A stretch of DNA of 64,000 bases. Source: Janibacter cremeus. GTDB lineage: Bacteria > Actinomycetota > Actinomycetes > Actinomycetales > Dermatophilaceae. Numbering within the stretch: the first letter of the stretch is position 1; each line of letters opens with the position of its first letter. Shown in pieces: positions 871-11,747 of the stretch. The position numbers were made by a program, and so were the translations under genes. Where the stretch lies: the NCBI RefSeq assembly GCF_029395675.1, contig NZ_CP115184.1:3348001-3412000 (forward strand). The letters run 5' to 3'. The notes under the pieces were generated by a model. The model saw nothing but the letters and a program-made list of their open reading frames with translations, was not told where the DNA came from and did no database searches.

Positions 871-1914
871 TCAGGAGTACTCGTAGGCCAGCACCGGTCC
901 GTCGACGTGGACCGGCACGACCTCACCGACCTCGGGCGTGCGTCGCCCGGTGACCCGGACGGTGACCTCGGTGCCGTCGACGAGCGCGACCCGCACGAGC
1001 GCGTGGGCACCGTGGTAGCGCGTGTCCAGCACGGTGCCGTGGGCGCAGGCCGGGGCATCGGTGAGGGTGAGGTCCTCCGGGCGGACGACGACGTCGACGA
1101 CCGCCGAGGAGGCGAAGGGGGTGGCCCCCGCCGGGGTGTGCACCACACCGAGGGCGCAGCTGATCCCGCCGTCCGCGGGTCGGCCCGGCAGGCGCACGAC
1201 GTCACCGAGGAAGGCGGCCTCCCGGATGTCCACGGGGGACTCGTAGATCTCCCGGGGCGTGCCGACCTGGCTGAAGCGGCCGTCGCGCATGATCGCGACC
1301 TGGTCGGCGAAGGAGAGCGCCTCCTGCTGGTCGTGCGTGACGAGGATCGTCGTGGCCCCGGCCTCCGCGAGCGCCCGGGCCACTGCCTCCCTGGTGCTGG
1401 CGCGCAGCGCCGTGTCGAGGGAGGAGAAGGGCTCGTCGAGCAGGACGACGCGGGGGGAGAGCGCCAGCGCCCGCGCGAGTGCCACGCGCTGCTGCTGGCC
1501 CCCGGAGAGCTGGTCCGGGCGCTTGGTCGAGATGTCGCCGGGAAGGCCCACGAGCTCGAGCAGCTCGCCGACGCGCTCGCGCCGGCGGCGGGACGCCCGG
1601 GGCATGCCGAAGGTGATGTTGCCGCCGACGTCCAGGTGCGGGAAGAGGCCGCCGTCCTGGCGCACGTAGCCGACCCCGCGCCGCTCCGGGGGCACCGCGC
1701 GGCCGCTGCCGGCCACGAGCTGCTCGCCGACGCGGACGGTGCCCGCCTCGGGTGCGAGGAAGCCGGTGATGACCCGCAGCAGGGTGGTCTTGCCCCCACC
1801 GGAGGCACCGAGGACGGCTGTCGTGGTGCCGCTCGGCACGGTGAGGTCGATGTCCTGCAGGACGGGCACGCCGCCGTACCCGACGCGGACGCCGTCGATC
1901 TGGACTGTACTCAT
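871..1914 (-). CDS. Ferric iron ABC transporter, ATP-binding protein (FbpC-like)
   Basis: 347-residue ABC ATPase that would power inner-membrane iron import. Walker A is GASGGGKTT (about 36-44), the signature is LSGGQQQR, Walker B is VVLLDEP, and the switch histidine is in VTHDQQEA. A C-terminal TOBE-like region of about 110 residues follows, as in FbpC/PotA-type importers. The start ATG overlaps the permease stop as ATGA, so the two are translationally coupled. It is the last gene of the operon that begins at 7034. The family and partners make iron the best substrate guess, though thiamine- or polyamine-type importers share this architecture. Confidence 0.88.
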   Translation of the reverse strand: MSTVQIDGVRVGYGGVPVLQDIDLTVPSGTTTAVLGASGGGKTTLLRVITGFLAPEAGTVRVGEQLVAGSGRAVPPERRGVGYVRQDGGLFPHLDVGGNITFGMPRASRRRRERVGELLELVGLPGDISTKRPDQLSGGQQQRVALARALALSPRVVLLDEPFSSLDTALRASTREAVARALAEAGATTILVTHDQQEALSFADQVAIMRDGRFSQVGTPREIYESPVDIREAAFLGDVVRLPGRPADGGISCALGVVHTPAGATPFASSAVVDVVVRPEDLTLTDAPACAHGTVLDTRYHGAHALVRVALVDGTEVTVRVTGRRTPEVGEVVPVHVDGPVLAYEYS

Positions 1915-3440
1915 TGCTCGATCCCACTCTGTCGGAGCATCAGGACGGTCAGGGGTGCGGACAACAGGATCATCATCGCCGCATAGGGGGCCGCACCCAC
2001 GTAGTCGAACTCGTCGCTGGCGGCCCAGAAGGCGGTGGCAAGCGTCGAGGTCCCCGTCGGGGCGAGGAGCAGGGTGGCGGTCAGCTCGGTGGCGGCCGCG
2101 ATGGCGACCAGGGCCGCACCGGTGAGCACCGACGGCAGCATCAGCGGCAGCACGACGCGACGGAAGGCGCCCACGGGTCCGGTGCCCAGGGAGCGGGCCG
2201 CCTCGCCCAGCTCCGGCGGCGCCGCGGCCAGCCCGGCGCGCAGGGAGATCATCGCGCGGGGAATGAAGAGGATCGTGTAACCGAGCACGAGGATGAAGGG
2301 GCTCTGGTAGATGCCCGGCAGGTAGCTGACGGTGAGGGTGATCATCGCCAGGCCGATGACGGCGCCGGGCAGGGAGCTGGCGACGTACGTGGCGCGCTCG
2401 AGCAGCATCGTCCACCCGGTGCGGCGGCGGCTCAGCAGCCACGCTCCGGGGAAGGCCATGGCGGTCGCGAGCGCGGCCGCGGCGAGGGCGAGCGAGACCG
2501 ACGAGCCGGTGGTCAGCAGCAGCGAGGGTCGGGGGAAGGCATCGGTGTCGGGCGTCGTGAGGTGGGCGAGCAGCCACCGGCCGACGGTGGTCACCGGGAC
2601 GACGAGGGCGATGACCACCACGAGCCCGAGGGCGGTGGTGGCGATCGGGGACCACCGGCCGAGGCGAACGGGGTCGGCGCGACGGTGCACACCCCGGCCG
2701 ACCCGGGAGGTGCGGGCGGTACCGCGCAGGAGGTGCTCGAAGGTGAGCACGGTGAGGCAGAGGAGGGTGAGGACGAGGGCGAGCAGGCTGCCCCGGTGGC
2801 TGTTGAAGCTGACCTCGTACTGCACGAGGATCGCGGTCGTGAAGGTCTGGTAGCGCATCATCTCGAGCACGCCGAACTCCGCGAGCAGGTGCAGCGCGAC
2901 CAGGAGCGCGCCGCCGCTCGCGGCCGGGCGCAGCCGGGGCAGGACCGTGCGCCACCAGGCGGCGAAGGGGGTGGCCCCCAGGGCGCGGGCGTCCTCCACC
3001 GGCGAGGCGTCCAGGTCGCGCAGGATAGCGGCGACGGGGAGGTAGACGAAGGGGAAGTACGCGGCGGTCGTCACCAGCGCAGCACCGCCGAGGCCGTCGA
3101 GACCCGGCCAGATGGAGATCCACGCATAGCTGGCGACGAAGGCCGGGACCGCGAGCGGAGCACCGAGCGCCACCCGCCACACCCCGGCGAAGGCCAGGTC
3201 GGTGCGCTCGACGAGCCAGGCGGCGCCCACGCCCAGGACGAGGCATGCGGGCACGGTGACGAGCACGAGCACGACCGTGTTGCCCAGCAGCTCGCCGATG
3301 TGGGGTCGCAGCAGGTAGTCCAGGACCGCGCGGGGAGAGGCGGCCATCCCATCCGCGGCGACGACCGCGATCGGGAGCAGCGTGACGGCCGCGACGAGGA
3401 TCGCCGCGGCCGTCACGAGCTGCTTAGAGGATGCCGGCAT
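1911..3440 (-). CDS. Ferric iron ABC transporter permease (FbpB-like, fused two-domain)
   Basis: 509-residue integral membrane protein with about twelve hydrophobic segments in two homologous halves, the fused arrangement typical of FbpB/CysW-type iron permeases. Each half has an EAA-like loop: ARALGATPFAAWWRTVLPRLRPA in the first and EAARSLGTGPVGAFRRVVLPLML in the second. The start at MPASSKQ overlaps the last 17 bases of the upstream binding-protein gene, and its stop overlaps the ATPase start. It would form the channel for iron released by the lipoprotein encoded at 3424. Confidence 0.88.
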   Translation of the reverse strand: MPASSKQLVTAAAILVAAVTLLPIAVVAADGMAASPRAVLDYLLRPHIGELLGNTVVLVLVTVPACLVLGVGAAWLVERTDLAFAGVWRVALGAPLAVPAFVASYAWISIWPGLDGLGGAALVTTAAYFPFVYLPVAAILRDLDASPVEDARALGATPFAAWWRTVLPRLRPAASGGALLVALHLLAEFGVLEMMRYQTFTTAILVQYEVSFNSHRGSLLALVLTLLCLTVLTFEHLLRGTARTSRVGRGVHRRADPVRLGRWSPIATTALGLVVVIALVVPVTTVGRWLLAHLTTPDTDAFPRPSLLLTTGSSVSLALAAAALATAMAFPGAWLLSRRRTGWTMLLERATYVASSLPGAVIGLAMITLTVSYLPGIYQSPFILVLGYTILFIPRAMISLRAGLAAAPPELGEAARSLGTGPVGAFRRVVLPLMLPSVLTGAALVAIAAATELTATLLLAPTGTSTLATAFWAASDEFDYVGAAPYAAMMILLSAPLTVLMLRQSGIEQ

Positions 3441-4446
3441 CCGTCATCATCTGCGTGACCTTCTCCGAGTCGAGGTCGACCGGGTCGATGGCCGGGGCCT
3501 CGAGGGACTCCAGTGTCGGCAGGTCGGGGTCGGAGGTCGCGCCCTTGGCGACGGAGTACTCCTTGGAGCCGCTGGTCTCGAGGACCTTCTGGCCCTCGTC
3601 CGAGAGGATGTAGGCGAGGAACTCCTGCGCCTTCTTCGGGTGCTCGGCGTTCTTGAGCACGCCTGCGGCGGAGAGGCTGACGAACGCGCCGGGGTCGCCG
3701 TTCCTGAAGTAGTGCAGCTTGGTGTTGCCCGAGCCCTCCTGGGTCTCGGCCTGGTCGCGGTACCAGTAGTAGTGGTAGATGACGCCCATCGGCACCTCAC
3801 CGGCGTTGACCGCGTTCATCGTGGCGACGTTGTGCTTGTAGATCTCCGCGTTCTCCTGCAGGCCCTCGAGCCACGCGGCGGTCTTCTCCTCGCCCTGGTC
3901 GGCGAGCATGCCGGCGACGATGGCCTGGAAGTCGGCCTGGGTGGCGCCGGCACCCCACATGCCCTGGTACTCGGGCTTCTGCAGGTCCATCAGCGACTCG
4001 GGCAGCTCCGACTCGGCGATCTCGTCCGGGTTGTAGACGAGGACGGTCGAGCGTGCCGCGACGCTGGTCCAGTTGCCGCTGGAGGGGCGGCGGTCCTTCG
4101 GGACGAGCTCCAGCGTCGAGTCGTCGACGGGGGCGAGCAGGTCGTTCTGCTCGACGAGGGTCATCGCCGGGCTGTTCTCGGTGAGGAAGACGTCGGCGGG
4201 GGACTCGGCGCCCTCCTCGACGATCATGTGCCCCATCGAGGCGTCCTCGCCGGGGCGGATCTGGGTCGCGATGCCGCTCTGCTCCTCGAAGCCCTCCGCC
4301 CAGGCCTGGGTGAGGTTGTCGTGCTGGCTGGAGTAGATCTGCAGCGCGTCCGGGTCGGGCGAGTAGCTCTCGCCGGCACCCCCGCACGCGGACAGTGCCA
4401 GGACCGACGAGGTCAGGGCGGTGGTGATCAGGGTGCGACGACGCAT
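3424..4446 (-). CDS. Iron ABC transporter substrate-binding lipoprotein (FbpA-like)
   Basis: 340-residue extracellular solute-binding protein. It has a lipoprotein signal peptide with lipobox LSAC (Cys 21), so it should be tethered to the outer face of the membrane. The mature part has the SBP family 1/FbpA fold signatures (IYSSQHDNL near the N-terminus; VFLTENSPAM). A tyrosine-rich stretch, YHYYWYR (about residue 222), matches the paired tyrosines that FbpA proteins use to bind Fe(III). The ATG overlaps the end of the upstream A-T-acyltransferase gene by 19 bases, so the four genes read as one operon. Confidence 0.88.
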   Translation of the reverse strand: MRRRTLITTALTSSVLALSACGGAGESYSPDPDALQIYSSQHDNLTQAWAEGFEEQSGIATQIRPGEDASMGHMIVEEGAESPADVFLTENSPAMTLVEQNDLLAPVDDSTLELVPKDRRPSSGNWTSVAARSTVLVYNPDEIAESELPESLMDLQKPEYQGMWGAGATQADFQAIVAGMLADQGEEKTAAWLEGLQENAEIYKHNVATMNAVNAGEVPMGVIYHYYWYRDQAETQEGSGNTKLHYFRNGDPGAFVSLSAAGVLKNAEHPKKAQEFLAYILSDEGQKVLETSGSKEYSVAKGATSDPDLPTLESLEAPAIDPVDLDSEKVTQMMTDAGIL

Positions 4447-7034
4447 GGGGTGTCCTCGGGGTGTCGGTGTCGGTGACGGGGAGTGGTGGGGGCGATGAGC
4501 TCGGTCAGGGCGCGCGTCGGGGGGTGCAGCAGGGCCCAGGCCGCGACGCCGGCCGCCAGGCTCAGCACGAGCGCGATGAGGCCGTTGTCGATGTACGGGT
4601 AGATCCGGAACTGCACGAGGTAGATGTGCAGCGACGCGGTGGCGAGCAGGCCGGTGAGCGGGGCCAGCAGCCGTGGCAGCGGGATCCGCGGGACGAGGGC
4701 GAGGACGACGACCGCGGCGAGCACGGTGGCCCCGCGCGTGGGGTCGAAGAAGAAGCCGACCATGCCGACCGCGGTGAGGGCGAGTGCGGCCAGGTGCTGC
4801 CGTCGGGTCGTGGCCACCCCGAGCGCCATGCCGACGGCGAAGAGCCACAGGACGCTGCCGGGAAGGCCGCTGATCGACCCGGTGGGGTCGGGGATGAGGA
4901 GGTAGCGCGGGACGAGCGCGAGCCCGGCGAGCCCCATGCTCCAGGCCCACGGGGAGCGCAGGTAGGCGCGCCTGGTCGCGGGCACCGCCATCAGGGCCAG
5001 GACGAGCACGATGCACGCGAGCAGCGCCTCGATGAACCACAGCTGCACCCGTGGGCCGTCGCTGACGACGGTGCCGACGAGCCAGTTGACGAGGAAGACG
5101 TTGGCCCAGTCGTAGCCTCCTCCGGCCAGGCGCACCGCGAGGGCGACGAGCACGGATGGCACGACGAGCGCGACGACGGCGCGGATCCCCCGCCGGCGGT
5201 GCTCCGCCGGGTCGGAGGAGACGAGGGTGAAGCGGGCCATGGCCCAGCCGGCGACGACGAGGAGGGTGTGGGCCCCACCCGGCCAGCTGACCAGCCCGAT
5301 GTGCGAGGCGCAGATGGCCAGCACCGCGGCGGCGCGCAGCACCACGGGGGTCTCCAGCCAGCTGATGGCACCGGTCCGTCCGCTGGTGGTGCGGACGAGC
5401 TCGGTCAGCGGCACCCGGTGCCAGTCTGAGGGGAGGGGCCCGAGGACCTTCTCGAGCCGGACCGATGTCTGCACGAGACTGTAGGAGTCACCGCCGAGCT
5501 CGGTGAAGGAGCGGCCCGCGTCGATGTCGTCGCGGCCGAGGGCGGAGGCGACGACGCCGACGGTGGCGCCCAGACGGTCGCCGTCGGCAGCGTCGGCCGC
5601 GTCGTCCGCCCGCTCGGCGTGGTCGAGGGCGTGACGACGGCAGCCGGCCCGGTCGGTCTTGCCGTTGGCCAGCCGCGGCAGCCCGGCGATCGGGGCGACG
5701 ACGACGGAGCCGGGGGGCAGGCCCGAGGCCTCCGCGGCGAGGGCGCGCACCTCTCGTGCGCTCTCCCGCGTGCCGGGACCGGCGGGGTCCGCCACGAGCG
5801 TGACGAGGAGCCGCTGGGCGTCGGAGGTGACGACGACGTCGTGGCCGGCCGCCGTGATCGCCTCGGAGACCCGCCCGAGGTCGATGCGCAGGCCCATAAC
5901 CTTCGCGACCTGGTCACGCCGGCCGACGATGCGCACCAGCCCGTCGTCGCCGATCCGCCCCAGGTCGCCGGTGCGCAGCTCGGTGACCATCCGGCCGAGC
6001 GCGAGCTCGTCGGCGTGCTCGGCGTAGCCGAGCATCACCCCGGGGCCGGTGAAGACGAGCTCGCCGACCTCGTCGGACCCGCCGGGCACGTCGTGGTCGA
6101 GCCGGAAGGAGGAGTTCGCGATCGGCGCCCCGACGGAGTCGGGGTGGGCGAGGACGTCGCGGCCGGGGAGGACCGCCATCCGCGCGGTCGCCTCCGTCTG
6201 CCCGTACATGACGGCCAGCTGCCACCCCTTCGCCCGCCCGGTCTCGGCGATCTCGGTCACGCGCTCGGGGGCCATCGCACCGCCCGCCTGGGTGACCAGC
6301 CGTAGGCCCGGCAGGTTGCCGCGCAGCCGGGAGCCGACGAGGTCGAAGGTGTGCGGGACCCCGGCGAAGAGGGTGGCGCGGTGCTCGGCCTGCAGCCGCC
6401 AGAAGCGGTCGTCCGTGACCGAGTGGTCGGTGACCACGACGCTGCCGCCGACGAGCAGGACGCTGTGCAGCACCGACAGGCCGTAGCAGTAGTGCAGGGG
6501 AAGGGAGGTGATCGCCCGGTCGTCGGCGTCCAGCTCGAGGGCGGTCGCGATGCCGTCGGCGTTGGCCGCGAGGTTGTCGTGGGTCAGGCGCACGAGCTTG
6601 GGGCTCCCGGTGCTGCCCGAGGTGGACAGCAGCAGCGCCAGGTCCGGGTGGAGGAGGTGCTGGGCGTCGGGGGAGATCACCTCGACGTCGGCGCCGGCGA
6701 GGCGCACGTCGGGGGCGAACCGGTCCGTGACGGACGTGGCCTGCGGGCCGGTCACCAGCGCGACGTGGCCGGCTGCGAGGACGGCGAGGTACCCGACGAC
6801 GTCGTCGAGGTGCTCGGTCAGTGGCAGGTGGACCAGGCGACGGCCGGTGGCCACGTCCGGCAGTCGCTCGACCACGGCGGCGACCCGCACGGCCAGCTCG
6901 TCGTGGGCGAGCGTGCGCTCGCGCGTGATCAGCGCCGTCGACGTGCAGGTGGGGTGCAGGAACGGTACCGCCCACCGGCTGCCGCTCGCGGGAGCCGGGA
7001 CCGGCATCTCGTGCAGCTCCGCGAGCAGTGACAT
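4428..7034 (-). CDS. Adenylation - carrier protein - acyltransferase-3 membrane fusion
   Basis: 868 residues in three parts. Residues 1-470 are an AMP-forming adenylation domain: STSGSTGSPK (137-146), YGQTE (277-281), RTGDLG (354-359) and NGKTDR (457-462). Residues 480-550 are an acyl-carrier domain with LGGDSYSL, whose Ser 517 is the predicted phosphopantetheine site. Residues 560-845 are a membrane domain of about nine helices resembling acyltransferase-3 (His 578 in CASHIGL; a late YLVQF motif). There is no condensation or thioesterase domain. The domain order resembles a one-protein version of DltA-DltC-DltB, with AT3 in place of the MBOAT partner. The ATG has TAGGCA exactly six bases upstream (leaderless style), inside a DtxR-like box. 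It leads the iron-transporter operon. Substrate and acceptor are unknown. Confidence 0.85.
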   Translation of the reverse strand: MSLLAELHEMPVPAPASGSRWAVPFLHPTCTSTALITRERTLAHDELAVRVAAVVERLPDVATGRRLVHLPLTEHLDDVVGYLAVLAAGHVALVTGPQATSVTDRFAPDVRLAGADVEVISPDAQHLLHPDLALLLSTSGSTGSPKLVRLTHDNLAANADGIATALELDADDRAITSLPLHYCYGLSVLHSVLLVGGSVVVTDHSVTDDRFWRLQAEHRATLFAGVPHTFDLVGSRLRGNLPGLRLVTQAGGAMAPERVTEIAETGRAKGWQLAVMYGQTEATARMAVLPGRDVLAHPDSVGAPIANSSFRLDHDVPGGSDEVGELVFTGPGVMLGYAEHADELALGRMVTELRTGDLGRIGDDGLVRIVGRRDQVAKVMGLRIDLGRVSEAITAAGHDVVVTSDAQRLLVTLVADPAGPGTRESAREVRALAAEASGLPPGSVVVAPIAGLPRLANGKTDRAGCRRHALDHAERADDAADAADGDRLGATVGVVASALGRDDIDAGRSFTELGGDSYSLVQTSVRLEKVLGPLPSDWHRVPLTELVRTTSGRTGAISWLETPVVLRAAAVLAICASHIGLVSWPGGAHTLLVVAGWAMARFTLVSSDPAEHRRRGIRAVVALVVPSVLVALAVRLAGGGYDWANVFLVNWLVGTVVSDGPRVQLWFIEALLACIVLVLALMAVPATRRAYLRSPWAWSMGLAGLALVPRYLLIPDPTGSISGLPGSVLWLFAVGMALGVATTRRQHLAALALTAVGMVGFFFDPTRGATVLAAVVVLALVPRIPLPRLLAPLTGLLATASLHIYLVQFRIYPYIDNGLIALVLSLAAGVAAWALLHPPTRALTELIAPTTPRHRHRHPEDTPCVVAP

Positions 7035-7052
7035 GAGGTTTGCCTATCCTTG
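7034..7052. promoter_or_regulatory. DtxR/IdeR-like iron box in divergent promoter
   Basis: TGAGGTTTGCCTATCCTTG matches the actinobacterial iron-repressor consensus TTAGGTTAGSCTAACCTAA at 14 of 19 positions. It spans the only gap between the minus-strand operon (start 7034) and the plus-strand PPTase (start 7098). It covers the likely minus -10 (TAGGCA, six bases from the ATG) and a possible plus -10 (TATCCT, 7045-7050). A bound repressor would therefore shut both directions when iron is plentiful. Matching was done by eye. Confidence 0.6.
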
Positions 7053-7097
7053 GTTCTGACGGCGAAACAGTACCGCGCCCCACCACCCGGAGGAAAC

Positions 7098-7670
7098 ATG
7101 GCCGTGCGAGATGGTCAGGTCGTGGACCTGTGGTGGGCCGACTTGCGCTCTGCGGAGGCGCGACTGTTCGCCTTCCTCGACGATCGCGAGCTCGAGCGCC
7201 TGGAGCGGATGGACCGCGCGGGGGACCGCGGTCGGTTCGCCCTCGGGGCGGTGCTGCTGCGGGTCGCCGTCGCGGCGGCCACGGGGGTCGAGCCGCGATC
7301 GGTCACGGTCGAGCGCACGTGCACCGACTGCGGCGCGCCCCACGGCGCGCCCCGGGTCGCCGGAGCGCGGGTCAGCGTCGCGCACGCCGGTCCGCTCGTC
7401 CTCGTCGGGACGGCGGACGTCGCGGTCGGGGTCGACGTCGAGTCCGTCGACCGGGGTGAGGACGTGGCGCGCTGGGTCGTGCGGGAGGCGCTCTTCAAGG
7501 CGGGCGCCGCGCCGCAGGCGCCGGTGGCCTCGCTGATGGTCCCGGCGCCGTGGCCCCGGTACCTCGCGGCGCTCGCCTGCGCCGGCCCGGACCAGCCGGT
7601 GGTCGTGACCCACGACCTCGACGAGTCCGCCGCGGCCCTCGAGCAGCTCGCCGCGGGCAGGTGGCCCTGA
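7098..7670 (+). CDS. 4'-phosphopantetheinyl transferase (Sfp/EntD-like, compact)
   Basis: 190 residues. It would transfer phosphopantetheine from CoA to the serine of the neighbouring carrier domain. The magnesium-binding VGVDVES motif is present, followed by WVVREALFKAG in the position of the family's W-x-x-KEA-xx-K motif. The first Lys of KEA is Arg here, and the stretch between the motifs is only about 12 residues, shorter than the usual 40 or so. ATG 7098 was chosen because GGAGGA lies just upstream; an upstream TTG at 7050 falls in the promoter. Divergent pairing with the carrier gene supports the call. Confidence 0.72.
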   Translation: MAVRDGQVVDLWWADLRSAEARLFAFLDDRELERLERMDRAGDRGRFALGAVLLRVAVAAATGVEPRSVTVERTCTDCGAPHGAPRVAGARVSVAHAGPLVLVGTADVAVGVDVESVDRGEDVARWVVREALFKAGAAPQAPVASLMVPAPWPRYLAALACAGPDQPVVVTHDLDESAAALEQLAAGRWP

Positions 7671-7673
7671 CGT

Positions 7674-7782
7674 CGCAGGAGCTTGGGCTCCTGCGAAGGG
7701 AGTCGGCCCGGTGGGTCCCAGGAGCCCAGGCTTTTGCGAAGGGAGTCGGCCCGGTGGGGTTGCAGGAGCCTAGGCTTTTGCG
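7674..7782. repeat. Tandem palindromic repeat (2.5 units of about 43 bp)
   Basis: Copies of CAGGAGC(C/T)(T/C)(A/G)GGCT start at 7676, 7719 and 7763, separated by the near-identical spacer GAAGGGAGTCGGCCCGGTGG. The first copy is a near-perfect hairpin. The third copy encodes the last two codons and the TAG stop of the minus-strand GNAT gene. It lies between two convergent genes and may act as a bidirectional terminator. Related copies lie at 24163-24210 and 53922-53976. Confidence 0.75.
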
Positions 7783-8798
7783 AGGGGAGAGGCGCCTCGG
7801 GCGAGGTAGACGTAGTCGTGGTGCTGCTGCATGCCCAGGCCCCGGTAGAGCTGCTGGGCGGCCTCGTTGGACGGCTCGACCTGCAGATAGGTCAGCGAGG
7901 CCCCGCTCTCCCGGGCCGCGCGCGCGGCCGCGAGCGTGAGCCACCTCCCGACCCCGCGGCGGCGGTGCCCGGGTGCCACGTGCAGACCGAAGATCCCCGC
8001 CCAGCCGTCGGCGAGGGCGACGCGGACGACGCCGGCGGTCCCCCCTTCGCCGTCCTGCGCGGTGAGGAAGACCTGGTGCGGCGGCAGGGCGAGGATCTCG
8101 CGGGCCGCGTCATGGTGCTGCTGCAGGCGGGGCGGGGAACCCGCCAGCCAGGTCTCGTCCACGTGCTCGCTCGCGTGCAGGGTCAGGCCCTCGGGAGCCG
8201 GCGCGGACCCGGTCAGGAGGGTGTCGGTGCGGCCGGTGAGGACGTCGGCGGGGTGGCCCTCGGTCCAGCCGCGCTGGAGCAGCAGCCGGCCGAGCGGGTC
8301 GTCGCCGGTGCCTGCGCCACGGGGGCGGGGGAGCATGACGAGCGGGGTGAGGTCGCGCTCGGTGTACCAGGCGTCGACCGCGTCGACCGCGTCGGGGAGC
8401 GGGAGCCCGGGGTCGCCGAGGGGGAGGGCGGAGTTGGAGCGCCCGGTCCAGCCGTGGCCGGCCCGCAGCAGCCAGCCCTCGCGCTCCTCGCCGAGCCAGG
8501 CCTGGGTGCTGCCGGGCTGCCCCTTGGTCATCACGAGGTGGAGGTCCTCGATCCCGATGGCCCGGTGGGGTGCGCCGCGACGGGTCGGCCGCGGCGGGAT
8601 GGCGCGGGTGGCGACGACGAGGTCGCGGCGCAGGGTGACCTCGCCGGTGCGCGTGGTCATCCGCACGCTCTCCTCGTCGAGCGCGGCGATCTCGCCGACG
8701 GTGTCGGTCAGCTGCGGTCCGTCGGCCGGTGGCGGCTCGATCCGGGTGCGCACGACTGCCCTGGACCCTGAGGTGAGACCCCGGAACAGATCGCTCAT
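7770..8798 (-). CDS. GNAT family N-acetyltransferase
   Basis: 342 residues. The C-terminal third holds the acetyl-CoA site (LHVAPGHRRRGVGRWLTLAA) and the closing YLQVEPSNEAAQQLYRGLGMQ segment of GNAT enzymes. The N-terminal 80 residues look like a small beta-barrel, as in actinobacterial homologues of this size. The start is set at MSDLFRGL; longer frames run into the divergent ferredoxin promoter. Its stop codon comes from a CCTAGG repeat. The acetylated substrate is unknown. Confidence 0.75.
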   Translation of the reverse strand: MSDLFRGLTSGSRAVVRTRIEPPPADGPQLTDTVGEIAALDEESVRMTTRTGEVTLRRDLVVATRAIPPRPTRRGAPHRAIGIEDLHLVMTKGQPGSTQAWLGEEREGWLLRAGHGWTGRSNSALPLGDPGLPLPDAVDAVDAWYTERDLTPLVMLPRPRGAGTGDDPLGRLLLQRGWTEGHPADVLTGRTDTLLTGSAPAPEGLTLHASEHVDETWLAGSPPRLQQHHDAAREILALPPHQVFLTAQDGEGGTAGVVRVALADGWAGIFGLHVAPGHRRRGVGRWLTLAAARAARESGASLTYLQVEPSNEAAQQLYRGLGMQQHHDYVYLARGASPLAKA

Positions 8799-8807
8799 GG
8801 GGGCACA

Positions 8808-8820
8808 TAGTATGGGCTGC
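8808..8820 (+). promoter_or_regulatory. Leaderless-type -10 for ferredoxin gene
   Basis: TAGTAT followed by seven bases and then ATG, with no Shine-Dalgarno sequence. Confidence 0.45.
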
Positions 8821-9147
8821 ATGACGTACGTGATCGCGCTGCCCTGTGTGGACCTCAAGGACAAGGCCTGCATCGAGGAATGCCCCGTCGACTGCATCTA
8901 CGAGGGCAAGCGCAGTCTCTACATCCATCCCGACGAGTGCGTCGACTGCGGCGCCTGCGAGCCCGTGTGCCCCGTCGAGGCGATCTACTACGAGGACGAC
9001 ACCCCCGAGGAGTGGGCCGAGTACTACAAGGCCAATGTCGAGTTCTTCGACGACCTCGGCAGCCCCGGTGGCGCCGCCAAGATGGGCATGATCGACAAGG
9101 ACCACCCGATCATCGCCGCCCTGCCCCCGCAGGAGCACGATGAGTGA
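8821..9147 (+). CDS. fdxA: 7Fe ferredoxin (fdxA/fdxC type)
   Basis: 108-residue cytosolic electron carrier with the seven-iron ferredoxin pattern. CVDLKDKACIEECPVDC supplies ligands for the 3Fe-4S and 4Fe-4S clusters, and ECVDCGACEPVCPVEAI supplies the rest. The start MTYVIA is the conserved family N-terminus; an in-frame ATG three codons earlier is possible. dapC follows after 15 bases, the same ferredoxin-dapC pairing seen in mycobacteria (Rv1177-Rv1178). A second 7Fe ferredoxin, encoded at 50395, belongs to the benzoyl-CoA cluster. Confidence 0.93.
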   Translation: MTYVIALPCVDLKDKACIEECPVDCIYEGKRSLYIHPDECVDCGACEPVCPVEAIYYEDDTPEEWAEYYKANVEFFDDLGSPGGAAKMGMIDKDHPIIAALPPQEHDE

Positions 9148-9162
9148 CGGACCCTGCTCACG

Positions 9163-10323
9163 GTGATCTCGTTACCTGAGTTTCCCTGGGACTCGCTCGC
9201 TCCTGCCAAGGCGCGGGCGAGATCCTTTTCGTCCGGCGACCCCGCCCTGGGTGAGGGGCTCGTCGACCTCTCGGTCGGCACACCCGTCGACCCCGCCCCG
9301 CAGGTCGTGCAGGACGCGTTGATCGCGGCCGCGAACGCCCCCGGCTACCCGCAGACGTGGGGGACGCCCGACCTGCGCGAGGGTGTCGCCGCGTGGTTCG
9401 CCCGGCGTCGCGGGGTGCCCGACCTCGACCCGGGCGGCGTCCTGCCGACGATCGGCTCCAAGGAGCTGGTCGCGTGGCTGCCGACCCTGCTCGGTCTCGG
9501 TGCCGGTGACGTCGTCGGTTTCCCGACCGTGGCCTACCCGACCTACGACGTGGGCGCCCGGGTCGCCGGGGCCACGTCCTTCGCCGCGGACGCCACCACC
9601 GCCTTCGGCCCGACGACACCGTCGAGCGCGCCGAAGCTGCTGTGGCTCAACAGCCCGAGCAACCCGACCGGGAAGGTCCTGGGGGTCGAGCACCTGGCCA
9701 AGGTCGTCGCCTGGGCGCGCGAGCGGGGCGTCGTCCTCGCGTCCGACGAGTGCTATGCGGAGCTGGACTGGCGCTCCGAGGAGGAGCGCGGCCAGTCCTA
9801 CGCCGAGCTGCCGACGACACCGTCGATCCTCGACCCGCGCGTCAACGGTGGCTCCCACGAGGGGCTGCTCGCCGTCTACTCCACGTCCAAGCAGTCCAAC
9901 CTCGCCGGGTACCGGGCGGCCTTCGTCGCCGGCGACCCGACGCTGGTGAAGCGCCTGCTCGAGGTGCGCAAACACGTCGGGATGATCGTGCCGTGGCCGG
10001 TCCAGCGCGCCCTGCTCGCCGCGGTCTCCGAGGACGAGCACGTCGCGGCCCAGCGGGAGCGGTACCGGGCCCGGCGTGAGGTCCTGCGCCCGGCCGTCGA
10101 GGGCTTCGGCCTGCGGATCGACGACTCCGACGCCGGGCTGTACCTGTGGGCCAGCGCCGACGAGCCCTGCCGGGTGACGCTCGACCGGCTCGCCGAGCGC
10201 GGGATCCTCGCCGCGCCTGGTGAGTTCTACGGCCCGTCGGGCCAGCAGCACGTGCGCATCGCGCTCACCGCCACCGACGAGCACATCGCCGCCGCGGCCG
10301 CCCGCCTGTCCGCGCAGCGGTAG
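9163..10323 (+). CDS. dapC: Succinyldiaminopimelate transaminase DapC
   Basis: 386-residue fold-type I PLP aminotransferase. It forms N-succinyl-LL-diaminopimelate in lysine and peptidoglycan synthesis, between DapD (12726) and DapE (14665). The nucleotide-fold features NSPSNPTGKV and ASDECYAEL are present, and the PLP lysine lies in YSTSKQSNLAGYR. The GTG at 9163 is the first workable start after the ferredoxin stop. The length agrees with actinobacterial DapC (about 360-390). Confidence 0.9.
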   Translation: MISLPEFPWDSLAPAKARARSFSSGDPALGEGLVDLSVGTPVDPAPQVVQDALIAAANAPGYPQTWGTPDLREGVAAWFARRRGVPDLDPGGVLPTIGSKELVAWLPTLLGLGAGDVVGFPTVAYPTYDVGARVAGATSFAADATTAFGPTTPSSAPKLLWLNSPSNPTGKVLGVEHLAKVVAWARERGVVLASDECYAELDWRSEEERGQSYAELPTTPSILDPRVNGGSHEGLLAVYSTSKQSNLAGYRAAFVAGDPTLVKRLLEVRKHVGMIVPWPVQRALLAAVSEDEHVAAQRERYRARREVLRPAVEGFGLRIDDSDAGLYLWASADEPCRVTLDRLAERGILAAPGEFYGPSGQQHVRIALTATDEHIAAAAARLSAQR

Positions 10324-10411: not shown

Positions 10412-10468
10412 ATGCCCGGGGCCACCGCCTCCGCGGCACGGCACGAACGAAGGGCTGATACCTCATGA
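10412..10468 (+). CDS. Possible 18-codon leader peptide before citrate synthase
   Basis: An ATG at 10412 preceded by GGAGAAG encodes MPGATASAARHERRADTS. Its TGA overlaps the citrate synthase ATG (ATGA), which would couple the two translations. A plausible -10, TAGTTT, lies upstream at about 10392. No homologue is recognised. Evidence is only the ribosome-binding site, position and overlap, so this may be chance. Confidence 0.25.
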   Translation: MPGATASAARHERRADTS

Positions 10469-11747
10469 CCGATGACGCCACCTTCTCCGCCGCAGGCAAG
10501 GACCTGACCTTCCCGCTCGTCAAGGCCAGCGAGGGCAACGACGGATACGACGTCTCCACACTGCTGAAGGAGACCGGCAACGTCACGTTGGACACGGGCT
10601 TCGTCAACACCGCGGCCTGCAAGTCCGACATCACCTACATCGACGGCGGCAACGGCATCCTGCGCTACCGCGGGTACCCGATCGAGCAGCTGGCGAGCAA
10701 GTCGACCTTCGTCGAGGTCGCCTACCTGCTCATCTACGGCGAGTTGCCGACTGCCTCCCAGCTGGGTGACTTCGAGGAGCGCATCAGCCGGCACACGATG
10801 CTGCACGAGGACCTCAAGGCCTTCTTCAACGGCTTCCCGCGCGACGCGCACCCGATGCCGGTGCTCTCCTCGGCGGTCTCCGCCCTGGGCACCTTCTACC
10901 AGGACAGCCTCGACCCCTTCGACCCGGAGCAGGTCGAGATCTCGACCATCCGCCTGCTGGCGAAGTTGCCGACGATCGCGGCCTACGCGCACAAGAAGAG
11001 CGTCGGCCAGCCGTTCCTGTACCCGGACAACTCGCTGAGCCTGACCGAGAACTTCCTGCGGATGACCTTCGGCTTCCCGGCCGAGCCCTACGAGCTCGAC
11101 CCCGAGATCGTCAAGGCGCTCGACCAGCTGTTCATCCTCCACGCCGACCACGAGCAGAACTGCTCCACCTCGACGGTGCGTCTCGTCGGCTCCGCGCACG
11201 CCAACATGTTCAACTCCGTCTCCGCGGGCATCCACGCCCTGTCCGGCCCGCTCCACGGCGGCGCCAACCAGGCGGTCCTGGAGATGCTCGAGCAGATCCA
11301 GGCCTCCGACGACGGTGCCGAGACCTTCATGAAGCGGGTGAAGAACAAGGAGGACGGCGTCCGCCTCATGGGCTTTGGTCACCGGGTCTACAAGAGCTAC
11401 GACCCGCGTGCGGCCATCGTCAAGGACACCGCCCACACCATCCTGGAGAAGATGGGCGGCGACGAGCAGCTCGAAATCGCCATGAAGCTCGAGGAGGTCG
11501 CCCTCGCCGACGACTACTTCGTCGAGCGCAACCTCTACCCGAACGTCGACTTCTACACCGGCCTGATCTACACGGCCATGGGTTCCACCCGAAGATGTTC
11601 ACCGTCCTCTTCGCGATCGGTCGTCTCCCGGGCTGGATCGCCCAGTGGCGCGAGATGATCGAGGACCCGGCCACCAAGATCGGCCGTCCGCGCCAGATCT
11701 ACACCGGCCCCACCGAGCGCGACTACGTCGACCTCGACAACCGCTGA
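10465..11747 (+). pseudogene. gltA: Citrate synthase with a -1 frameshift near the 3' end
   Basis: Type II citrate synthase, which condenses oxaloacetate and acetyl-CoA in the TCA cycle. Active-site regions are intact: [18 protein letters not shown] and [10 protein letters not shown] (catalytic His, His and Asp). One base is missing at about 11581-11584, where a Gly codon should precede TTC. As written, translation runs into 25 foreign residues and stops at 11658. Restoring one base recovers the normal ending ([18 protein letters not shown], then RPRQIYTGP) up to the stop at 11747. The lost segment contains the conserved C-terminal arginines. Since this enzyme is normally needed, a sequencing error is at least as likely as a real mutation. 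Confidence 0.85.

Follow-up and report, generated by a model that had tools for sequence, protein, structure and literature searches.

How importers of the Fbp class obtain their insoluble Fe(III) in bacteria without an outer membrane is, to our knowledge, not settled. This question is raised by an operon of Janibacter cremeus, in which the genes for such an importer are preceded by a gene for a single protein with an adenylation (A) domain, a carrier (T) domain and a membrane domain of the acyltransferase-3 (AT3) family. The operon is located on the minus strand of a stretch of 64,000 nucleotides (contig NZ_CP115184.1, positions 3,348,001 to 3,412,000; this whole stretch is the window, and positions are counted from its first letter), within a genome of 3.5 Mb that is present as one contig with a completeness estimate of 100%. 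We lean, with caution, towards the view that the A-T-AT3 fusion is a self-contained transmembrane acylation enzyme, which is induced by iron starvation and supplies the ferric importer. An iron-controlled acylating enzyme in an importer operon would be a testable answer to the problem of insoluble Fe(III) supply where neither nonribosomal peptide synthetases (NRPS) nor NRPS-independent siderophore (NIS) synthetases are detected.

The fusion gene (4428-7034) encodes 868 amino acids and is followed by fbpA, fbpB and fbpC, every gene overlapping its neighbour; the overlap between the fusion gene and fbpA is 19 bp. The first-pass annotation had described one gene with the order A-T-AT3 that overlaps an FbpA-like gene in an FbpA/FbpB/FbpC operon, and reading frames and domain search bear this out. 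The fusion is also supported by an AlphaFold2 model with a mean pLDDT of 89.9 and a pTM of 0.60. Its nearest named relatives come from Janibacter, where 9 of 15 other genomes of the genus have a fusion, which is thus patchily kept within the genus, and it is present in 14 of 296 genomes sampled evenly across the phylum. For comparison we used 80 named loci (L026-L105), the best 80 of 454 confirmed fusion matches, which were found with motifs from close relatives; residue conservation was counted in 79 aligned fusions. Genes of the relatives were found with tblastn and a codon-based gene caller, in preference to GC3-filtered all-against-all frame clusters, which mixed real and shadow frames. 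Three features, namely the domain order A-T-AT3, an iron box and a link to a ferric importer, are found repeatedly far outside the genus too. One relative of the fusion (G351, contig 41, 40156-42330) carries a single in-frame TAG and is possibly a decayed copy or the result of a sequencing error.

What could such a protein activate? The A domain (residues about 20-470, 5625-6977, minus strand) matches the AMP-binding family with an E value of 1.3e-39, and the T domain (residues about 487-550, 5385-5576, minus strand) matches PP-binding with 4.4e-5, above the cut-off of that family. Ser517 in the motif GGDS is the expected pantetheine site, and Ser517, K459 and R285 are invariant in all 79 fusions. 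Residues 182-187 are acidic in none of the 79 and residue 181 is Asp in six, with the exact position equivalent to D235 being uncertain. An Asp is usual in this region of A domains for alpha-amino acids but not strictly required, since McyG has Val, as stated in parts of PMC11253843. Because residues 182-187 are never acidic, unlike in the usual A domains of this kind, a substrate without an alpha-amino group is likelier, and the predicted donor is probably a carboxylic acid and not an alpha-amino acid. The structural matches of the A domain, among them enzymes for oxalyl-CoA, feruloyl-CoA and benzoate-CoA, MenE, VinN and DltA, lie within 2.6 Z units and fail to separate the donor candidates. 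That the donor is a dicarboxylate is speculation, prompted by R285 and the kind of some of the top matches.

The AT3 domain (residues about 560-852, 4479-5357, minus strand) matches Acyl_transf_3 with an E value of 1.2e-5 and does not reach the curated cut-off of Pfam PF01757 (31 bits), with 25 bits for the whole protein and 27.9 for the domain alone; 57 of 60 aligned AT3 pieces, the one from the window included, match this family at E <= 0.001, the best with 1.8e-16. The motifs of transmembrane acyltransferases (TmAT) used for comparison were taken from passages of PMC12423673 and PMC9833829. R567-x10-H578, the R-x10-H of transmembrane helix (TMH) 1, is kept in all 79 fusions, and the same is true for G596 (the Gly of TMH2), G735 and S801-x3-Y805 (the SxxxY of TMH9); in our reading of the alignment G735 would correspond to the TMH6 Gly. 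Near the start of TMH3 the window protein has R615-G-I-R618, and 51 of the 79 fusions have an RxxR in the corresponding region. Two positions of the known motifs are not kept: the Asp of the TMH1 DxxR is replaced at position 564 (V in 54, I in 12, L in 5, T in 4, A in 3 and M in 1), and the Phe of the TMH2 FxxxxG at position 591 (Leu in 78 and Met in 1). The Asp of DxxR is reported as dispensable in OacB in a section of PMC12423673. With the 10-helix fold of the domain model, the predicted structure is that of a TmAT-type transmembrane acyltransferase. The fusion shares this fold, the R-x10-H, the TMH2 and TMH6 Gly and the SxxxY with the AT3/TmAT superfamily (OafB, OatA, HGSNAT); it differs in the placement of AT3 behind an A-T pair, in the changed DxxR Asp and TMH2 Phe and in having no SGNH domain. 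Since the AT3 domain is fused behind an A-T pair, the donor is likely carrier-bound and not acyl-CoA, and the term carrier protein appears 0 times in the main text of either PMC12423673 or PMC9833829. If true, this would widen the TmAT superfamily from acyl-CoA to carrier-bound donors, and we know of no earlier TmAT enzyme with a fused carrier-bound donor. A search for stand-alone relatives with the AT3 part gave nine short proteins (163-479 amino acids) among 8000 scored candidates, two of them with a carrier domain; they lie on contigs of at most 647-5480 bases and were read as pieces of fusions, and thus offer no stand-alone relative as a lead.

Is this enzyme controlled by iron? A box of the DtxR/IdeR type at 7034-7052 (strand not assigned), TGAGGTTTGCCTATCCTTG, shares one base with the ATG of the fusion gene and agrees with the DtxR consensus at 14 of 19 bases; a strict search for this consensus with <=3 mismatches gave no match in the 64-kb window. 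In the relatives, the region from 400 bases upstream to 60 bases downstream of the match start was scanned with a threshold of >= 12 of 19 bases. Box matches were present in 68 of 80 loci, compared to 18 of 743 background windows, and were found in 51 of the 57 loci with Fbp genes as well as in 17 of the 23 without Fbp genes nearby. A de novo motif search by expectation-maximisation (EM) with 40 random seeds and no iron input retrieved TTAGGTAAGGCTAACCTAA from the 80 upstream regions with an estimated occupancy of 85% and a log-likelihood of 630, versus 56-74 in four shuffled controls. With the matrix learned from the relatives the box in the window scores 18.3 bits, while the runner-up place in the window reaches 10.3; when the window was block-shuffled 200 times, a score of 18.3 bits was reached anywhere in one shuffle, and it was also reached by 5 of 874 background stretches from the relatives' loci, which may contain boxes of other genes. 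The iron box that had been proposed is upheld by its score in the window and by the motif learned in the relatives, and the operon is apparently under DtxR/IdeR control, as judged from the sequence. A pattern search of the complete genome is weak support by itself, since it gave 15 matches at 10 places compared to 8 matches for the reversed control pattern. At the four of these loci that were searched for families (frames were listed at six), two boxes are located before Peripla_BP_2 genes and two have no iron gene. The two before Peripla_BP_2 genes are at 2234553 and 1558855 (contig 1), one of them followed by FecCD, and these genes for siderophore-type binding proteins probably serve the uptake of foreign siderophores.

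The second part of the question concerns the importer. fbpA (3424-4446, minus strand) encodes a ferric-binding lipoprotein of the YfuA/SfuA type, fbpB (1911-3440, minus strand) a permease with two BPD_transp_1 stretches, and fbpC (871-1914, minus strand) an ABC ATPase with a TOBE domain; for family search and tblastn the fbpA query was extended by 8 codons beyond its ATG. FbpA matches the solved structures of YfuA (PDB 1xvx, 3.7e-104), SfuA (2.7e-100) and HitA (1.5e-72). The motif HYY (residues 225-227) is present in 31 of 31 aligned proteins (30 of 53 called proteins and the one from the window), and Y/N-HYY in 74 of 76 rows that include unlinked FbpA; we take the Tyr pair to be Fe(III) ligands, and the His of QH and the Glu of TEN to be further ligands. 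The latter two are present in the window and in the YfuA type; in other types one of them, or both, are changed. The best NCBIfam models for the transporter proteins name 2-aminoethylphosphonate or sulfate, and none of these matches reaches its cut-off; we therefore base the ferric assignment on the relatives of solved structure, on the Tyr pair and on the iron boxes. The FbpA matches are what the locus shares with the SfuABC/YfuABC/HitABC ferric importers, and we know of no acyl-transfer gene in the operons of these systems.

In 57 of the 80 loci at least two of the three Fbp genes were located within 8 kb of the fusion, a fraction that is biased upwards because the loci are the best of the 454 matches and were found with motifs from close relatives. 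The Fbp genes were downstream and co-directional in 40 loci, upstream and co-directional in 7, upstream and divergent in 6 and downstream and opposed in 4. On a quick tree of the fusions these arrangement labels require 16 changes, compared to a shuffled mean of 35.5, and the linked FbpA proteins fall into a YfuA-type clade and several divergent places (on a tree with a long-branch warning). In the 296 genomes of the phylum, whose association counts ignore kinship, an FbpA-class gene is present in 98, namely in 12 of the 14 with a fusion and in 86 of the 282 others, and YfuA-type FbpA (E below 1e-90) was found in 5 of the 14 and in 0 of the 282. The best FbpA is located <= 6 kb from the fusion in at least 5 of the 14 genomes, that of the window included; this is a lower bound since one FbpA place was reported per genome. 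Adjacency of Fbp genes, whose consistency across actinobacteria the first-pass annotation had proposed to test, is found in 57 of the 80 named loci and in at least these 5 evenly sampled genomes, and is not found in 23 of the 80 loci.

These 23 loci without Fbp genes nearby weigh in part against the coupling to ferric import; fusions lying in contexts without iron genes had been named beforehand as the case that would speak against it. They could also indicate that fusion and importer share an operon by accident, an explanation that we regard as barely credible: the linkage recurs in four arrangements, the fusion overlaps fbpA in 26 of the 40 downstream co-directional loci, and 17 of the 23 loci still carry a box match on the fusion. 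Moreover, 22 of the 23 genomes hold an FbpA-class gene somewhere, and some of the loci may be cut off from their Fbp genes, since in 9 of the 23 the sequence available to one side is shorter than 6.5 kb. Among the neighbours of the fusion in 16 of these loci no conserved partner was seen; 73 of 84 neighbouring proteins were scanned (11 were omitted, including all four of L089; 6 near-duplicates and proteins >700 amino acids were also excluded). This suggests that common metabolites or envelope components probably serve as donor and acceptor.

If the fusion serves iron supply, could it be part of an ordinary siderophore pathway? The A and T domains are both NRPS hallmarks, present by domain search and conservation, and the fusion might be the loading or tailoring part of an assembly line encoded elsewhere. 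Among 30 fusion genomes (in one of which, G044, the fusion is matched over residues 1-547 only), 9 match the condensation domain (one, G191, below the cut-off) and 7 IucA/IucC, which makes 11 with either. The other 19, including the complete genome studied here, match neither family, and we consider an assembly line very improbable. The condensation modules of NRPS siderophores, which had been said to be absent, were indeed not found by family search in the fusion protein or in the complete genome, nor was an IucA/IucC match found in the genome (the metallophore search was limited to these two families); hence neither classical type of siderophore synthetase was detected.

The mechanism we favour would start with iron-loaded DtxR/IdeR repressing the operon, as the conserved box suggests, and with low iron relieving this repression. 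A 4'-phosphopantetheinyl transferase (PPTase), perhaps the product of a divergent gene next to the operon, would arm Ser517, and the A domain would adenylate a carboxylic acid, probably without an alpha-amino group, and load it onto the T domain, which is what its family and pocket suggest. The pantetheine arm might then enter the AT3 pore from the cytosol, where R567 and H578 may assist in transferring the acyl group onto an acceptor at the outer face, in line with the TmAT fold and motifs. Judging by the genomic association, the product would be a ligand for Fe(III), either exported or bound to the surface, that feeds FbpA and subsequently FbpBC. A more far-reaching version is offered tentatively, as a possibility that we rate below an even chance: a widespread actinobacterial route of iron acquisition without NRPS or NIS synthetase, in which the membrane protein activates some common carboxylic acid, moves it from the carrier domain through the TmAT pore to an acceptor outside and thereby makes a cell-surface Fe(III) trap for FbpABC; the acid might be a di- or tricarboxylate that is bound by the invariant R285.

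The outer-face acceptor could also be a surface glycopolymer or lipid that is acylated in iron starvation, altering charge or permeability in a Dlt-like manner without chelation. Sections of PMC12423673 name extracytoplasmic carbohydrates as the main described targets of AT3/TmAT acylation, and parts of a preprint (PMC13345540) report that AimS of Acinetobacter, an iron- and zinc-regulated stand-alone AT3 and a different protein from the fusion, acts independently of cellular metal content. A direct role in iron supply accounts better for the physical and statistical association with ferric import genes, which involves several types of FbpA and several gene orders, and we find envelope remodelling doubtful. 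Alternatively, AT3 might be a release domain that acts on a small acceptor in the cytosol or within the membrane, yielding a simple ester or amide metallophore which another protein exports. The lack of a conserved partner in the 16 scanned loci without Fbp genes nearby would suit a small-molecule synthase consisting of one enzyme. This appears unlikely to us, because the TmAT fold and motifs indicate transfer towards the outer face and no exporter family is prominent beside the fusion (MFS_1 in 3 of the 73 neighbours). In the Rhodococcus locus L056, genes for an ABC ATPase and a membrane protein, ABC-2 exporter-like by reading, are located upstream of the fusion, at a distance of about 2.4 to 0.7 kb and in the same direction.

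The transmembrane acylation enzyme proposed here would need an activated carrier. A short PPTase-like protein is encoded divergently at 7098-7670 (plus strand). It matches AASDHPPT_N with an E value of 0.0056 and 17.3 bits, compared to a cut-off of 27; the three places in the genome that are matched by the ACPS family do not include this gene. In an alignment of 20 such proteins (19 of the 27 matching loci and the window), 15 match AASDHPPT_N at E <= 0.01, the best with 3.2e-8, and D113, W126, E130 and K134 are invariant, with the second acidic residue of GVDVE being Q in many; the catalytic motifs of PPTases contain acidic and Lys residues. In 27 of the 80 loci, 24 with Fbp genes and 3 without, a PPTase-like match starts 65-230 bases upstream of the fusion and runs on the other strand. 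The divergent, activating PPTase claimed earlier is found as a divergent PPTase-like gene whose family matches stay under the curated cut-offs, and such a gene is adjacent to the fusion in these 27 loci; the identity of 7098-7670 as a putative PPTase is the weakest part of our reading of the locus. The carrier could also be armed from one of the three other ACPS-family places. Elsewhere in the genome there is another AMP-binding gene, closely followed by an ACPS-family match (contig 1, 2147535-2149592; L024, L003). Fusion, divergent PPTase-like match and box match are kept in L031, L039 and L041, which have no Fbp genes nearby, and L041 has a resolvase-like gene upstream, by reading.

How does this system compare to known ones? 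The Dlt system uses three proteins (DltA, DltC and DltB) and a D-alanine donor, whereas here a single protein is found, whose membrane domain is AT3 and not, as DltB, of the MBOAT type. Aas-type fusions of acyl-ACP synthetase and phospholipid O-acyltransferase likewise combine acyl activation and transfer in one polypeptide, and the NCBIfam models PRK08633 and PRK06814 match the ligase part of our fusion, far below their cut-offs. The Aas-type fusions have another acyltransferase fold and the reverse domain order, and we know of no link to iron. The epsilon-poly-L-lysine synthetase is a single A-T protein with a membrane part, which has an A domain for an amino acid and soluble domains between its helices and is not an AT3. 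The first-pass annotation knew of no described system of this makeup, and in our search of the open-licence literature (titles and abstract openings) no description of the A-T-AT3 architecture or its iron link was found; an earlier description elsewhere is possible. The parts are known ones; their combination in a single protein and its regulation are what we did not find reported.

The genes flanking the operon look ordinary. Among the frames 31-828, 7770-8873, 8821-9147, 9163-10323 and 10465-11658, the family search found VanW-like and N-acetylglutamate synthase-like proteins, and ferredoxin-like, aminotransferase-like and citrate synthase-like proteins were recognised by reading only.

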